IMG/VR virus record: IMGVR_UViG_3300021077_000044
Span: 1 to 31,433 of that record
DNA length: 31,433 nt
Direction: 5' to 3' (one strand)
DNA from: a virus
Below the pieces are notes generated by a model. That model was not told the DNA's origin. It searched no databases and saw only the letters and a list, made by a program, of their open reading frames with translations. Below, in pieces: positions 2,141 through 17,611 of this stretch. The translations under genes were made by a program, and so were the position numbers. How positions within the stretch are numbered: position 1 is the first letter of the stretch; every line of letters begins with the position of its first letter.

Positions 2141-2250
2141 CCGGCCTAATCATCCTCGCGTTTCTCTTTTCCGGCCTGCTGCTCTGCGAGGACAACAGCG
2201 AAAAGGCACGGATGGCGCGGCTCCATAAGGGGCAGGGGGGGCGTAAATGA
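2137..2250 (+). CDS. Tiny membrane-anchored peptide (37 aa)
   Basis: It is linked by ATGA overlaps to the gene before and the ParB-like gene after. MTGLIILAFLFSGLLLCEDN is a hydrophobic N-terminal helix, followed by a basic tail (SEKARMARLHKGQGGRK). A single-pass inner-membrane peptide with a cytoplasmic basic tail is the simplest reading. The gene also supplies the GGGG-rich region serving as ribosome binding site for the next start. Function is unknown. Confidence 0.5.
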   Translation: MTGLIILAFLFSGLLLCEDNSEKARMARLHKGQGGRK

Positions 2251-3128
2251 AACGGCATCCCCTCTCAGCGCTTTTCTCCCGCTATGACCTGACCGGAGAA
2301 GACCTCCAGGCCATGGCCGATGACATCAAGGCCAACGGCCAGTTCAGCCCAATCACCCTACTGGACGGGCAGATCCTGGACGGCTGGAACCGATACCAGG
2401 CCTGCCGATTGGCCAAGACCAAGCCCGTCACGATCAAGCTGGCCCCCGGCGTCGATCCCTGGGAATTCGTCAAGGGCAGCAACATGCTGCGCCGACACAT
2501 GAGCCCTGCCGAGCGCGTGGCCGTGATGCTGCTGAAGATGCAGATGATTAAATCTGCAGATGATCATATGGTCAATAATGACCAACCAAAAGAGTCAACT
2601 AATCCGACTGTCCGCGAAATCCAAAAAGACCTAGAAGTTAGTAAGGGCGTAGCAGTCAAGGCCGCTCAGGTGGCGAGGGCGAATGACCCTGAACTGAATC
2701 AAGCTCTGGCCGAAAAGCGAATTGGTCTCGATGAGGCTTCAAAGATTTCCCGGCTTCCAGAACCGGAGCGCAAGGCCGCGCTGGAGTCACCGAAGCCCGC
2801 ACCAGCACCAAAGCCATCGCCCGCCACCGGTTGCGAATGTGAAGCACTCCGCACCCGGGTGGCGGAACTCGAAGGACAGAACTCTGAGTTGGTGGCGCTG
2901 ATGACGGGGCTCCAAGAGGAGCTGGAGGCTGCCAGCCGCGTCCTCGATGCCGAAGACCTACTCACGCAATTCAACAAGGAAATCAAACGCGCCCAGGAGC
3001 AGGCCAGGATCGTGCAGTCACGAAATAACGGGTTGATGAATGAAAACAGCGATCTCAAGGGGCGGCTGAAATCGGCGCTGCGGAAGATTGAAAGGCTGAA
3101 AAAGGATCTCGCCGGGAGGGCCGCATGA
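2247..3128 (+). CDS. ParB/Srx-fold protein with C-terminal coiled coil
   Basis: The N-terminal 90 residues fit the ParB N-domain fold: LTGEDLQAMADDIKANGQFS, then ITLLDGQILDGWNRYQACR (about 35-54), the DG-x-x-R-Y box that binds CTP or phosphate in ParB relatives. Residues about 117-150 (TVREIQKDLEVSKGVAVKAA) look like an HTH. Residues 195-290 are a long charged coiled coil with SRNNGLMNENSDLKGRLKSA. ParB-fold phage proteins can bind DNA, nick it or regulate genes; which applies here is not visible. Its place directly before a helicase and primase suggests a replication-linked DNA-binding role. A short AT-rich patch at about 2540-2600 encodes a polar linker and contains a palindrome. Confidence 0.85.
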   Translation: MKRHPLSALFSRYDLTGEDLQAMADDIKANGQFSPITLLDGQILDGWNRYQACRLAKTKPVTIKLAPGVDPWEFVKGSNMLRRHMSPAERVAVMLLKMQMIKSADDHMVNNDQPKESTNPTVREIQKDLEVSKGVAVKAAQVARANDPELNQALAEKRIGLDEASKISRLPEPERKAALESPKPAPAPKPSPATGCECEALRTRVAELEGQNSELVALMTGLQEELEAASRVLDAEDLLTQFNKEIKRAQEQARIVQSRNNGLMNENSDLKGRLKSALRKIERLKKDLAGRAA

Positions 3129-4627
3129 GCAGCCTTTTCGGGGGAGAATTCCCCCCTCTTCGCCCCTTCCAGATTTCGACGCATGAGGCCATTCGGAAAG
3201 CGGCGCGTGAAGGGCACCGACGAATCCTTGTAAGCGCCCCGACCGGCGCAGGGAAGACAATCCAGGCGCTGAACACGATCCGGGAGACCGTTGGCAAGGG
3301 TAACCGGGCCATGTTCCTAGCTGATCGGAAGACGCTCATCTCGCAGACATCCAACGTAGCGCTTGACCTTGGCCTGGGCCATCACGGGATCATTCAAGCC
3401 GATAACCCGATGCTGGATCTGACGCGGCCATTCCAGATTGCGAGCTGCCAGACGCTCATGCGGCGCGGGTGGCCCAGCTCTGATGTGCTGATCGTCGACG
3501 AGGCCCACACCATGTATAAAACGTGGGTGGATTACGTTCAGTCCGACGAATGCAAAGCCTTTGTCATCGGATTGACGGCTACCCCATTCAGCAAAGGGCT
3601 CGGGAAAATCTTCACCAAACTCATCAATGCTGCGACCATGGCGGAACTCACCAATGAAGGCACGCTGGTGCCCATGCGTGTTTTCTCATGCCGGAAGCCC
3701 GACATGAGCGCTGCCGTGGCCAAGCCCGGCGATGAATGGTCTGACGAATCGGCGGCAACGGCTGAGATGGCCATCATTGGCGACGTGCTTTCCGAGTGGA
3801 ATCGGCTGGCCAGCGACCGGAAAACCATCATCTTTGGCCCCACCATCGCCTATTGCGAGGAACTGGCCAAGCAGTTCAACGATGCTGGTATCCCTGTGGC
3901 GGTGTTCTGTTCTGATACCCCTGACGATGTGCGCGTGCGCATCACGGGCGATTTTGCCTTTGGGTTGATCCGCGTCCTGATCTCAGTGGAGGCCCTGGCT
4001 AAGGGATTCGATCAGAAGGATGTGGGCTGTGTCTGCGACTGTCGCCCGCTCCGGAAGAGCCTTTCCACCGCTATCCAGATGTGGGGGCGTGGTCTGAGAT
4101 CCAGCCCCGAGACTGGCAAAAAAGACTGCCTGCTCCTTGATTTCAGCGGGAACATCATCCGCTTCTGGGATGACTTCGAGCGCGTGTACCACGAAGGCGT
4201 AGGCCGCCTGGACGAGGGAGAGAAGCTCGACAGGACCATCCGGAAAGACAAGGACGAAGAACCCAGGGCATGCCCCAAGTGCGGGCATACGCCCTTTGGC
4301 CGAAAGTGCGTCCAGTGCGGATTCGAGGTTGAGCGGAAATCCTTGGTGGAAGGACGGCCCGGCGAGATGCAGGAAATCCGCATCGGGAAAAAGGTGCTGG
4401 CCCACGATCACGCGGAACTCTGGGCACAGATCGCCACCTACTCGAAGACGCACAGCTCACCCGAAAAACAACAGGGCAGGGCGGCCCATCTCTACAAGGA
4501 CATCGTAGGCCACTGGCCGCCCCGTGAATTCCAAGTCGAGACGGCGCCGCACATGGAGCCTACCGCCGCGACGTCCGGGAAGATCCGATCCCTCTACATC
4601 GCCTTCAGCAAGCGGAGGGTGGCATGA
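3125..4627 (+). CDS. Superfamily 2 DEAD/DEAH-type helicase with zinc ribbon
   Basis: The 500-residue protein has the SF2 motifs in order: Walker A SAPTGAGKT (37-45), DEAH (125-128), TATP (151-154), and motif VI QMWGRGLR (318-325). These define an ATP-driven nucleic acid translocase. A four-cysteine ribbon follows, CPKC (383-386) and CVQC (395-398), then a basic tail probably helping to hold DNA. It sits between the ParB-like and primase genes with four-base overlaps on both sides, so it is most likely the phage replication helicase or an accessory one. It is not a hexameric DnaB-type helicase, and none is present in the window. The host replicative helicase may therefore be recruited. Family assignment is firm; the exact role is inferred. 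Confidence 0.93.
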   Translation: MSSLFGGEFPPLRPFQISTHEAIRKAAREGHRRILVSAPTGAGKTIQALNTIRETVGKGNRAMFLADRKTLISQTSNVALDLGLGHHGIIQADNPMLDLTRPFQIASCQTLMRRGWPSSDVLIVDEAHTMYKTWVDYVQSDECKAFVIGLTATPFSKGLGKIFTKLINAATMAELTNEGTLVPMRVFSCRKPDMSAAVAKPGDEWSDESAATAEMAIIGDVLSEWNRLASDRKTIIFGPTIAYCEELAKQFNDAGIPVAVFCSDTPDDVRVRITGDFAFGLIRVLISVEALAKGFDQKDVGCVCDCRPLRKSLSTAIQMWGRGLRSSPETGKKDCLLLDFSGNIIRFWDDFERVYHEGVGRLDEGEKLDRTIRKDKDEEPRACPKCGHTPFGRKCVQCGFEVERKSLVEGRPGEMQEIRIGKKVLAHDHAELWAQIATYSKTHSSPEKQQGRAAHLYKDIVGHWPPREFQVETAPHMEPTAATSGKIRSLYIAFSKRRVA

Positions 4628-5544
4628 ACACGATGGATACCGCTAACGCCGCCCGGGGCCGCTGGACAGGCGTCCTTTCCGCCCTCGGGATTGATTCAAA
4701 ATTCCTCCGTAATGTCCACGGCCCGTGCCCAATTTGCAACGGTGGGAAGGACCGGTGGAGGTTCGATGACAAGCTGAATGGAAACTTCTTCTGCTCACAT
4801 TGCGGGTCCGGAGACGGCTTCGTGCTGCTCCAGAAGTTCCACGGCTGGGACTTCAAGCGTGCCGCCGCCGAGGTAGACAAGATCGTCGGCACTATCCCCG
4901 AAACTACCGAGAAGAAGCCAGAACGCACCGAAGAGGACAAGCGGGCCTACATGAAGAAGCTCTGGAAGGAAAGCATGCCCGTCACTCCTGGAGATCCGGT
5001 ATGGCTCTACCTGGAGCGGCGATGCGGGGACCCGTCCGGCGTACGGCAGGATATTCGGTTCCACCCTGCGCTCAAGCATTCCGTGGATGGGGGCCTTCAC
5101 CCGGCCATGCTCGCCATGATGGGCTGGGATGGCAAACGGTACTCCGGCATCCATCGCACATACCTAGACGCGAACGGCCAGAAGGCCCAGGTTGATCCGG
5201 TTCGCATGTCCTATGGTGATGTGGGCGCCGTCAGGCTCGGACCCGTCCTGGAACGCCTGGGCATCGCGGAGGGCATCGAGACGGCGGCGTGTGCCTCGAA
5301 GATTTTCGGCCTGCCGGTCTGGTCGGCCATCTGCGCCAACGGGCTCATCGCCTGGGAACCACCCGAGGGGGTGAAGAGCGTAGTTGTGTTCGGCGACAAC
5401 GACGATAACTATACCGGCCAAGCTGCGGCCTTCGCATTAGCGAAACGATTGCGCATTTCTGGGCTCGAAGTCGAGGTTCAGATCCCTGGAACGGTGGGCA
5501 CCGACTGGGCCGATTGCATGACGCAGCACCAGGAGGTGGCTTAA
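4624..5544 (+). CDS. DNA primase (zinc ribbon plus TOPRIM)
   Basis: The 306-residue protein makes RNA primers for replication by family logic. It has the P4-type primase zinc ribbon (Cys35, 38, 57, 60 in CPIC and CSHC), a linker, and a TOPRIM domain with IAEGIET (Glu216) and the acidic VFGDNDD (258-261). The last part (IPGTVGTDWADCM) is the usual TOPRIM C-terminal strand and helix. P4 alpha-type proteins fuse primase to a helicase; this one stops after TOPRIM, while an unrelated SF2 helicase is encoded just upstream. It overlaps the previous stop by four bases and the next start by one. The ribosome binding site of the following gene lies inside its last codons. Confidence 0.93.
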   Translation: MNTMDTANAARGRWTGVLSALGIDSKFLRNVHGPCPICNGGKDRWRFDDKLNGNFFCSHCGSGDGFVLLQKFHGWDFKRAAAEVDKIVGTIPETTEKKPERTEEDKRAYMKKLWKESMPVTPGDPVWLYLERRCGDPSGVRQDIRFHPALKHSVDGGLHPAMLAMMGWDGKRYSGIHRTYLDANGQKAQVDPVRMSYGDVGAVRLGPVLERLGIAEGIETAACASKIFGLPVWSAICANGLIAWEPPEGVKSVVVFGDNDDNYTGQAAAFALAKRLRISGLEVEVQIPGTVGTDWADCMTQHQEVA

Positions 5545-6063: not shown

Positions 6064-6567
6064 ATGATCACCCTCGAAGACCTCCCACTCACCTACGTTC
6101 TCCAGCCCCTTGAGGACAACCCATCTCGCCGGAACTGCTGGGAGGCCATCAAACAACTCCCCGATGGCGTGGTGGTGGAGCTCAAGGAAGAGACCCGCAC
6201 CATCGAGCAGAACCGGCTCATGTGGCCGATCCTCACCCTGTGGGCCAAGAACCAGTCCGCATGCGTGAACGGCCAGATGATCCCAATCACGGCAGACGGA
6301 TGGAAGTCCATCCACCTGGCAGATTTCCAGCAGGAGGAGGGCGAGGCGGCCCAGTTCGTGCTGACGCCCCGCGGGCAGTTGATGCCCCTGGCAACCAGGA
6401 CCCACAACTTGGGGAAGCGGAAGTTCGCCCGACTCCTGACCTACCTCCTGGCAGAGACCGGGGACCGCGGCATGGAACTCCCTCCCCGCGCGAAGGAAGA
6501 GTGCATCGGTTACATCCGCAAGTATTCCAAGGATATGGAGCCCACCGGCTGGCAGGCGGCATCATGA
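6064..6567 (+). CDS. ninB: NinB-like recombination protein
   Basis: The 167-residue protein carries the NinB/Orf hallmark: LPDGVVVELKEETRTIEQNR then LMWPILTLWAKN, a basic helix after an acidic turn. Lambda NinB (Orf) binds single-stranded DNA and SSB and helps load phage recombinases in place of RecFOR. The middle segment (GWKSIHLADF) and the C-terminal part (LATRTHNLGKRKFARLLTYL) also fit. The start overlaps the preceding stop (ATGA), so it is the last gene of the rightward replication block before the leftward cassette. No recombinase of Beta, Erf or RecT type is visible, so it probably works with host RecA. Confidence 0.9.
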   Translation: MITLEDLPLTYVLQPLEDNPSRRNCWEAIKQLPDGVVVELKEETRTIEQNRLMWPILTLWAKNQSACVNGQMIPITADGWKSIHLADFQQEEGEAAQFVLTPRGQLMPLATRTHNLGKRKFARLLTYLLAETGDRGMELPPRAKEECIGYIRKYSKDMEPTGWQAAS

Positions 6568-6574
6568 GCGAGAC

Positions 6575-6598
6575 AAAAAAAGCCCCCATCACGGGGGC
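6575..6598 (-). terminator. Intrinsic terminator of the leftward HTH/ParB-like cassette
   Basis: On the minus strand GCCCCC, loop GTGAT, GGGGGC are followed by seven U (6581 down to 6575), a textbook Rho-independent terminator. The stop codon of the HTH gene (6589-6591) falls in the loop. It ends the leftward transcript before it reaches ninB. Confidence 0.85.
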
Positions 6599-6786
6599 GT
6601 CAAACCGGCCTGACGAAACGCCGCATGGATCCATTCGAGGGCTCTGCGGTCGGGTTGGGTCTCACCGTTGGCCCACCGCCGCACGGTCCTCACGTCGCAC
6701 AGGAGGACATCGGCCAGGGCCTGGACCCCTCCCAACTTCTCAGCCAGGAGGGACCACGGGGCGGGGAGAGTGGTTGGGCGGCCCAC
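6589..6786 (-). CDS. HTH (XRE-like) regulator of the leftward cassette
   Basis: The 65-residue protein is almost entirely one helix-turn-helix: WSLLAEKLGGVQALADVLLC, then DVRTVRRWANGETQPDRRAL and a final helix. TVRRWANGE is a recognition helix and turn of XRE/Cro type. The start is GTG at 6786 and shares a base with the upstream TAG stop (TAGTG), so it is translationally coupled to the ParB-like gene. It is encoded against all neighbouring genes, between its own promoter/operator and terminator. By analogy with small repressor cassettes it probably binds the palindrome at 7143-7165 and regulates its own operon. That link is inferred from layout. Confidence 0.8.
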   Translation of the reverse strand: MGRPTTLPAPWSLLAEKLGGVQALADVLLCDVRTVRRWANGETQPDRRALEWIHAAFRQAGLTPP

Positions 6787-7100
6787 TACTCAACCTCAAA
6801 CGTCAGGGTCTCACAGCGGTGGGCACCGTCACAAACCTGCTCAATGCTGTAGTCATCCTCAGCATCGATACCCAGGTCACTCAACATCGTTTCGGTGCTG
6901 TATTCAACGGCCTCAATCTCAGGTGTAATACCGAGAGCGTGGGCGGCCCGCAGGCGGTGGCAACCCTCAAGCGCAACCCAGGAATCCCAGCAATCCATCC
7001 ACACAGCCTTGATCGTGGGGGCTCCCAGGGTATTCATCTCAGCCTTGACCTCATCCAGGTGCTCAACGTCGAAGTGATTGTGGAAAAGGATGACGCGCAT
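6786..7100 (-). CDS. Small ParB/Srx-fold protein
   Basis: The 104-residue protein holds VALEGCHRLRAAHALGITPE, which is the ParB-box pattern (G-x-H-R-x-x-A/A-H) of the ParB N-domain. Before it, residues 1-40 form the expected beta-alpha unit (VILFHNHFDVEHLDEVKAEM). The tail is acidic with a Cys-x5-Cys pair (CDGAHRC). There is no HTH domain of the type found in chromosomal ParB, so it is a stand-alone member. Such proteins are widespread in phages and plasmids, with few characterised. It is first in a two-gene leftward operon with the HTH regulator. The start ATG at 7100 has AGGGAG nearby. A second ParB-fold protein is encoded at 2247-3128, but the two share only the box. Confidence 0.8.
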   Translation of the reverse strand: MRVILFHNHFDVEHLDEVKAEMNTLGAPTIKAVWMDCWDSWVALEGCHRLRAAHALGITPEIEAVEYSTETMLSDLGIDAEDDYSIEQVCDGAHRCETLTFEVE

Positions 7101-7141
7101 CGTGGCTCCCTGTGGTTGCGGGGTTCGTTCCCCATGAAGAT

Positions 7142-7170
7142 AGTATCGGGCAGGCTGTCCGATACGTCAA
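7142..7170 (-). promoter_or_regulatory. Promoter with overlapping operator palindrome
   Basis: On the minus strand TTGACG (7170-7165) and GATACT (7147-7142) are separated by 17 bases. A 23-base near-perfect palindrome (7143-7165) with seven-base perfect outer arms GTATCGG and CCGATAC fills the spacer. Only the centre base and one symmetric pair break the symmetry. An operator between -35 and -10 is the classic arrangement for repression, most likely by the HTH protein of the same operon. Confidence 0.7.
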
Positions 7171-7254: not shown

Positions 7255-7575
7255 ATGAGTGACCTCGAAAACGCTCTCGCCATGCAGATCAAATGGGCCA
7301 AGCTCCCAGAGCCAGAGCGGGAATTCTGCCGAGCAATACCTGGTAGGAAATTCAGATTCGATTTCGCGTGGCCAGAATTTAGGCTCTTGGTTGAGGTGCA
7401 GGGAGGAACCTGGATCAATGGAGGCCATTCCTCGGGCTCTGGCATAGCTAGGGACTGCGAAAAAGGCAACCTCGCTACGTTGGCAGGGTGGAAGGTGCTC
7501 CACGTAACTGGTGACCAAATACGCTCAGGAATCGCTATTCAGTTTTTGCAGACGTTTTTTGAGGAGGCGTCATGA
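7255..7575 (+). CDS. PD-(D/E)XK-type endonuclease
   Basis: The start at 7255 follows GGGAGG at good spacing; the longer frame to 7213 lacks this and crosses non-conserved sequence. The 106-residue protein has Asp36 (FRFDFAWP), then EVQ (Glu47, Gln49) in LLVEVQGGTW, followed by GHSSGSGIARDCEKGNLATL and GWKVLHVTGDQI. The D, E-x-Q/K, then H-x-T pattern is the PD-(D/E)XK nuclease core of Vsr/DUF559-like and many small phage nucleases. It probably cuts or repairs branched or mismatched DNA during replication or recombination. It restarts the rightward strand after the leftward cassette. Fold assignment is good; substrate is unknown. Confidence 0.8.
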   Translation: MSDLENALAMQIKWAKLPEPEREFCRAIPGRKFRFDFAWPEFRLLVEVQGGTWINGGHSSGSGIARDCEKGNLATLAGWKVLHVTGDQIRSGIAIQFLQTFFEEAS

Positions 7576-16601: not shown

Positions 16602-16808
16602 ATGGCTGGGACTCCTCAGACTGTAACCGTGACCGGCAATCTTCCGCTGGCAAGTGCGGATCAGGCTGTATTCACCGACACCATCACCAACTCGAACCCG
16701 TTCGGGTTCAGCACCAAGGCCAAGGGCGACGCCCTGATTGCTGAGGTGAACGCACTTCGAGCCACGCTTGTTGCTGCCGGGTTCATCGTTGGTGGTTCTA
16801 CCTACTAA
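16602..16808 (+). CDS. Small virion-linked protein (68 aa)
   Basis: AAAGGA precedes the ATG. The peptide begins MAGTPQTVTVTGNLPLASAD and has a helix at the C-terminus (GDALIAEVNALRATLVAAGF). Beta-rich N-terminus and position right after the coat gene suggest a small head protein, such as a decoration protein, but I recognise no family. Its stop overlaps the next start by one base. Confidence 0.65.
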   Translation: MAGTPQTVTVTGNLPLASADQAVFTDTITNSNPFGFSTKAKGDALIAEVNALRATLVAAGFIVGGSTY

Positions 16809-17611
16809 TGGCCAAAGTCTCCGTTTTCCTCCCGACCTTCAACCGGCCCAAGATGCTGGCTGAATCCGTGGCGTCCGTCCTTTTGCAAGAAGGGGTGGAC
16901 TTCGAACTGCTGATTCTGGATAACGGGTCAGAGCGGGAGACTGGCGACTTTCTGAGCACGATCAATGACCCACGGGTGAGCGTTTTCAGGTTCGAGAAGA
17001 ACGCACACCCCTGGGAATTCCTATTCAATCAGTCCACAGGCGATTACTTCGTGCTGTGGACCGATGACGATGTGATGGAGACCTGGAATCTTGCAGCTAA
17101 GGCTTCCATGTTGGACGCAAACCCAGAAATGGGGTGCGTGTTCTCGCCCGTCACGGTGATCAATCCAGATGGAGAACCCTTCGGCCCCCAGAATGATGGC
17201 GTGGTCGATGGCGAAGTGACGTTCTCGAGCCTGTTCCGACACAACGTCATCCCAATGCCGTCTGCGATGACCAGGCGGGGCATGTTCCCGGCGTTCTGGA
17301 TGGAATCTCTGCAATTCAAGGAGTGGGCAGACTGGGCGTTCTGGCTCAACGTGGCCAAATGCTCTCGGATTGGATATATCCCCGAGCGTTTAGGCAGGCT
17401 CCGCATCCATACCGGTTCAGAAACGGTATCCCTTGGTATCCGAGCAGGCCATTTCCTTCCTCTTTACCCCAGAATCTGGAGTCACTGGATCCAGCGTGGC
17501 CATTCTCCATCGCAAGAGGACTGGGAGGAGATGCGGCGCGTTTATTTGGTTCTAGCTGATGCCACGTTCGAAGCGCTGAAAGGAGGGCGTTTTGTCTCGG
17601 TTGATGCTTAA
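16808..17611 (+). CDS. GT2-family glycosyltransferase
   Basis: The 267-residue protein opens SVFLPTFNRPKMLAESVASV and LLILDNGS (Asp38), then FVLWTDDDVM (Asp86-88). This is the nucleotide-sugar site and DxD metal motif of family 2 glycosyltransferases (GT-A fold). The acceptor-side region includes KEWADWAFWLNVAKC, with the acidic residue and Trp pattern of the GT2 catalytic helix. No membrane segment is seen, so it is soluble. It lies inside the head genes between coat and gp4-like, where P22 has none. It may glycosylate a virion protein or host surface sugars. Both its ends overlap or abut neighbours, so it is expressed with late genes. Confidence 0.9.
   Translation: MAKVSVFLPTFNRPKMLAESVASVLLQEGVDFELLILDNGSERETGDFLSTINDPRVSVFRFEKNAHPWEFLFNQSTGDYFVLWTDDDVMETWNLAAKASMLDANPEMGCVFSPVTVINPDGEPFGPQNDGVVDGEVTFSSLFRHNVIPMPSAMTRRGMFPAFWMESLQFKEWADWAFWLNVAKCSRIGYIPERLGRLRIHTGSETVSLGIRAGHFLPLYPRIWSHWIQRGHSPSQEDWEEMRRVYLVLADATFEALKGGRFVSVDA

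Follow-up and report, generated by a model that had tools for sequence, protein, structure and literature searches.

The two-gene minus-strand unit at positions 6575-7170 of the window (the whole IMG/VR virus record analysed, 31.4 kb) is probably an autoregulated phage cargo (moron) cassette resembling the acr-aca operons. Comparison with related loci (numbered with an L prefix below) showed that the constant part is the regulator with its predicted promoter switch, and that the cargo gene is exchangeable. The unit was complete between ninB and a phrog_503 endonuclease-like gene, and both flanks were directed rightward. Its features were as follows.

6064-6567, plus strand: ninB, left neighbour.
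6575..6598, minus strand: intrinsic terminator, comprising a stem at 6582-6598 and a T run.
6589..6786, minus strand: small HTH (Cro-like) regulator of 65 aa, MGRPTTLP family, GTG start.
6786..7100, minus strand: cargo gene encoding a ParB_N-like protein of 104 aa with an EGCHR motif.
7106..7111, minus strand: ribosome-binding site AGGGAG in the leader CAACCACAGGGAG, which is common to L003 and, less exactly, to L125.
7142..7147, minus strand: -10 box GATACT, also part of the right operator half-site CCGATA[CT]T.
7143..7165, minus strand: 23-bp operator GTATCGGACAGCCTGCCCGATAC, an imperfect palindrome (10/11 arm pairs) with a leave-one-out score above all 1000 shuffles.
7165..7170, minus strand: -35 box TTGACG; most related loci carry TTGAC or TTG at this fixed position ahead of the operator.
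About 7255-7575, plus strand: phrog_503 endonuclease-like gene, right neighbour.

The sequence-only reading had described a leftward unit inside a rightward region, with a sigma70-like promoter and palindrome, coupled genes and a terminator holding the last stop in its loop. Each of these was present. The promoter TTGACG-17-GATACT (minus strand, 7170-7142) was the sole match in 3 kb, with 1.0 expected by chance, and is therefore weak when taken alone. The palindrome lies between the boxes and extends onto them; TATCGG-N9-CCGATA had one exact match in the window, at 7143-7165 (0.07 expected with up to one mismatch). Promoter and palindrome are both secure because comparison with relatives supports them. 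The cargo stop and the GTG start of the HTH gene overlap as TAGTG, giving coupled open reading frames. The terminator folded with -13.8 kcal/mol over 36 nt and carried the TGA stop of the HTH gene in its loop, an arrangement also found in L003. On codon statistics alone, the minus frame could not be told from its plus-strand mirror frame. Comparison resolved the strand, as differences to relatives concentrated at minus-frame third positions, both in the HTH gene (12/6/20 and 8/8/20) and in the ParB-like gene (12/12/30 and 22/17/40).

Single-sequence and profile scans of viral contigs yielded members of the HTH family in five further IMG/VR contigs, at L002, L003 and L004 and then at L124/L126 and L125. 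The cassette comparison therefore comprised a small sample of six phage-type loci. The L002 and L003 HTH proteins were 71-72% identical to that of the window, the L004 protein about 40%. The HTH gene was the last in a small operon at every viral locus, and the operon ran opposite to both neighbours in the window, L002, L003, L004 and L125. The first genes were as follows.

Window: ParB-like, 104 aa.
L003: 80 aa, unrelated, followed by a ParB-like gene shortened to 56 aa.
L002: 101 aa.
L004: 70 aa.
L125: 56 aa.
L124/L126: 90 aa.

Between the window and L003, promoter and leader were alike up to the start codon and the genes beyond were unrelated; the shortened L003 copy behind a new gene looks like cargo turnover. 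In L125, the cassette was inverted and convergent with ninB as in the window, but carried other cargo. It was located between ninB (49% identical to the window NinB) and terS (35%), and the terminase large subunit of this contig was unrelated to that of the window. In L126, the whole promoter-cargo-HTH unit was located between attC-like sites GCCTAAC...GTTAGGC and, judged by these sites, is an integron gene cassette. A functional pairing of the ParB-like and HTH proteins had been proposed. The HTH gene and operator recurred with many unrelated partners, the ParB-like/HTH pair recurred only in L003, and ParB-like genes stood in two other phages without the HTH; for these reasons the pair is not a conserved unit, and the proposed functional pairing is not supported. 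The layout does bear out the description of a self-contained cassette of moron type, separately regulated and equipped with an operator and terminator of its own; an anti-host function is plausible.

Further observations were made on these contigs. In L124/L126 (IMGVR_UViG_3300038549_000019), attC-like repeats surrounded gene cassettes in the manner of an integron, and one stretch was present at two distant places (11.8-20 kb and 47-55 kb). Instead of a virus, this record may represent a bacterial integron or a duplication made in assembly. The L003 contig encoded a second, longer HTH relative ending in GWPW (6269-6649, minus strand) in a co-directional gene cluster and without an operator of its own, and the L004 HTH protein had the same C-terminal extension. 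The L002 cargo (4696-5001, plus strand) contained the pattern CHWTD...VYLTNDPEAAKHYGG, which recalls ADP-ribosyltransferase/Tpt1-like proteins. This assignment stays a guess because the AlphaFold model was of very low confidence, as was that of the ParB-like protein (pLDDT 42-43).

For the operator search, a weight matrix was built from the six phage-type sites and each was tested with itself left out; 200 bp upstream of the first gene was scanned against 1000 dinucleotide shuffles per locus. The sites were aligned by hand with L004 shifted by one base, so exact scores depend on the choice of alignment. The score exceeded all 1000 shuffles in the window, L002, L003, L004, L124, L125, L100 and L103, and was reached by 1/1000 in L105 (HicAB) and L104 (IS1595). 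In this leave-one-out scan, 10/13 loci were at or below 1/1000. L108 (19/1000) and L102 (27/1000) were marginal, and L101 was negative over the same 200 bp and 1000 shuffles; no convincing operator was found for the HTH relatives L101 and L102 of Holophagae. TTG, mostly TTGAC, directly preceded the operator in nearly all loci, and the right half CCGATA[CT]T doubled as the -10 box. The first genes downstream were unrelated, with products of 101, 80, 70, 56 and 90 aa, AbiEii, HicAB and an IS1595 passenger. As judged from these alignments, what is conserved is the HTH gene together with a 23-bp operator at a set place between TTGAC and the -10 box, and the palindrome is a candidate binding site of the HTH protein. 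In Aca systems, the HTH protein binds inverted repeats overlapping the -35 and -10 boxes and represses (PMC8434428, PMC9410906), and IR1 always lies within the core promoter (PMC9410906).

A scan of viral contigs with the operator alone returned 22 stretches, nearly all attributable to chance; apart from L003/L019 and a Cro-like gene in L025, none was relevant. The HTH family itself is a distant Cro/carph-isopro relative by profile score. Carph-isopro (NF046037) was the best NCBIfam match of most members, at 17-26 bits; the window protein reached 17.2 bits and the scored relatives 15-26 bits, all below the curated cut-off of 38 bits. The resemblance extends to P22 Cro-like HTH proteins. In contrast to the cassette proteins, true carph-isopro members sampled in Alphaproteobacteria were mostly in large open frames and lacked the operator. 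General use of the cassette operator by carph-isopro proteins was discarded (0/32 loci, mostly alphaproteobacterial). In L127, a Cro-type carph-isopro protein was located opposite a CI-like gene, with the operator TATCGGACAAATTATCCGATA, very similar to the cassette operator.

The window terminase was BPP-1/AP1-like and the portal P22-like. Among bacterial genomes, the closest terminase was that of an Acidobacteria MAG (60% over almost the whole length), the class of which we take to be Holophagae. The HTH profile matched 9/93 genomes of that class and, at a stricter cut-off, 6/396 genomes across the phylum, five of them already found in the class. The phage host is probably in Holophagae, given the terminase match and the places where HTH relatives occur. 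In Holophagae genomes, more distant HTH members adjoined AbiEii in L100 and L103 (E 3e-15 and 2e-12), and one followed HicA-HicB (E 1e-19 and 2e-16) as the third gene of L105. In the latter (3795-4537, minus strand), the small HTH gene came third after hicA-hicB, and a cassette-type operator was located upstream. Some members adjoined NUDIX proteins or were fused to them. Others were carried, alongside a Bro-N protein, as passengers of IS1595-type transposons. Transposons of this type, with inverted ends GATTATCGGCGAGCCTCAGCCT, were seen in L104, L108 and L019; the HTH relative and Bro-N passengers were present in L104 and L108, and only the inverted ends in L019.

The label ParB-like is weak. 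The window protein had no ParB match in Pfam or PHROG; only its 53%-identical relative in L118 reached ParB_N of Pfam (E 0.04), and this relative also touched a ParB family of PHROG (E 0.03), each time in the right register. These matches make the label a fair lead to a putative ParB_N membership, the similarity to ParB being weak. Relatives over most of the length were found in two phages, L118 (53%) and L120 (44%), neither with the cassette HTH gene beside it. There was also a partial match in an uncultured huge phage and a remote relative on a Pararoseomonas plasmid. A Sinorhizobium plasmid match was spurious, being within a response-regulator-like open reading frame. The profile gave no convincing homologue in the 93 Holophagae genomes, and its sole weak match, L109, looked by eye like an undecaprenyl-diphosphate-synthase-type protein. 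The L118 gene was located among tiny genes with near-consensus promoters, a setting we infer to be typical of early anti-host genes. Pfam, PHROGs, NCBIfam and PADLOC identified no Acr among the cargos of the window, L002, L003 and L004, and none of these resembled a family with a known role against CRISPR or other defences. That the ParB-like cargo acts against the host or its defences is plausible, at a confidence clearly lower than for the cassette itself and somewhat below even.

The operon would be expected to work as follows. On entry, host RNA polymerase would read the strong leftward sigma70 promoter; the cargo protein would be made first, and the HTH protein by coupled translation. The HTH protein would then bind the 23-bp palindrome filling the spacer and overlapping the -10 box, and shut the promoter. 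With the promoter shut, the cargo would be made in a pulse and then kept low, for example in a lysogen. The terminator would insulate the oppositely directed ninB and late genes. DNA binding, repression and pulse timing are proposed by analogy; the layout, the conserved HTH family, the conserved operator fixed within the promoter, the exchange of cargo (also beside ninB) and the occurrence in other mobile settings were observed.

In the window and its relatives, as in acr-aca operons, the HTH gene is last after variable small genes, and the core promoter contains an inverted repeat that members of the HTH family have in common and that overlaps the -35 and -10 boxes. Besides phages, the acr-aca systems are found on other mobile elements, and some come with known acr genes and some without (PMC9410906, PMC8434428); anti-defence genes defined by their regulator follow the same logic of constant regulator and exchanged cargo (PMC11065993). 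The cassette differs in that the literature examined describes neither its HTH family nor its operator, no cargo of the window, L002, L003 and L004 is a known Acr, and the host group is probably Holophagae. An NCBIfam scan of the cassette HTH proteins gave no Aca match. The unit also shares with phage morons its own promoter and terminator, an orientation opposite to its neighbours and a position that varies between phages; in contrast to these, a dedicated regulator links otherwise unrelated cassettes. That AbiEii and HicAB operons also contain this regulator family points to an autorepressor of general purpose, not one specific to anti-CRISPR genes and, since some relatives are in toxin-antitoxin operons, the family is not specific to anti-defence.

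These same operons, together with the promoter-bearing integron cassette in L126, invite a toxin-antitoxin interpretation, in which the ParB-like protein would be the toxin, with the HTH protein serving as both cognate antitoxin and autorepressor. Relatives of the cassette HTH gene and operator accompany AbiE operons (L100, L103) and HicAB (L105), and AbiEi likewise autorepresses through inverted repeats (PMC3985639). The window cassette differs from them in having no recognisable toxin, and its HTH protein is too short for the C-terminal antitoxin domain of AbiEi. In L105, HicB is already the antitoxin, and the ParB-like relatives in L118 and L120 have no HTH partner. HTH proteins 71-72% identical accompany unrelated first proteins, not all of which a protein-binding antitoxin could neutralise. 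Among the loci compared, no toxin family stayed together with one antitoxin family. A dedicated pairing of this kind, which had been raised as one role for the unit, is unlikely because the partners are exchanged.

A unit for lysogeny or superinfection immunity, with the HTH protein controlling other phage promoters and the ParB-like protein as a helper, is slightly less probable still. The HTH protein does resemble Cro-like regulators, and the Cro-type protein of L127 faces a CI-like gene at a similar operator; but the sole occurrence of the operator in the window is at its own promoter, the cargo varies, and other repressor-like genes are present at 1327-2054. Least credible of all, and very improbable, is a role of the ParB-like gene in partition or as an accessory to DNA replication, its separate regulation being coincidental. 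This reading would draw on the weak ParB_N similarity and on a larger ParB-like protein in the same phage (2247-3128). Against this, 104 aa leaves no room for the HTH and dimerisation domain of ParB: neither the central HTH nor the C-terminal dimerisation domain was matched in this protein, and no ParA partner was found among the neighbours scanned.

The autoregulated cargo cassette remains the preferred explanation. A bolder extension of it is speculative: HTH gene and operator might form a portable control module that repeatedly captures new genes for host takeover, anti-defence or toxins and carries them between the phages, integrons and IS1595-type transposons of Holophagae, with the ParB_N-like protein as a new early anti-defence class. 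Aca-type regulators are among the best baits for anti-defence genes, and to our knowledge no anti-defence genes have been described in Holophagae. Operator and HTH gene together provide a handle for listing candidate anti-host genes from sequence alone. The occurrence of one regulator family with phage cargo, in toxin-antitoxin operons and in an integron cassette bears on the sharing of control modules by mobile elements.

Several other features of the window were recorded. The larger ParB-like gene at 2247-3128 (phrog_4715) was without ParA and was followed by helicase- and primase-like genes; its best match was the Acidovorax phage AP1 gene before helicase and primase, in the same gene order. 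Positions 1327-2054 contained a pair of small HTH genes, of which one was YdaS-like (Pfam E 2e-6); this is likely to be the repressor/Cro region of the phage itself. An open reading frame at 16808-17611, among the structural genes, resembled by eye a family-2 glycosyltransferase. The very end of the contig (31337-31433) comprised 2.3 perfect copies of a 42-bp repeat.
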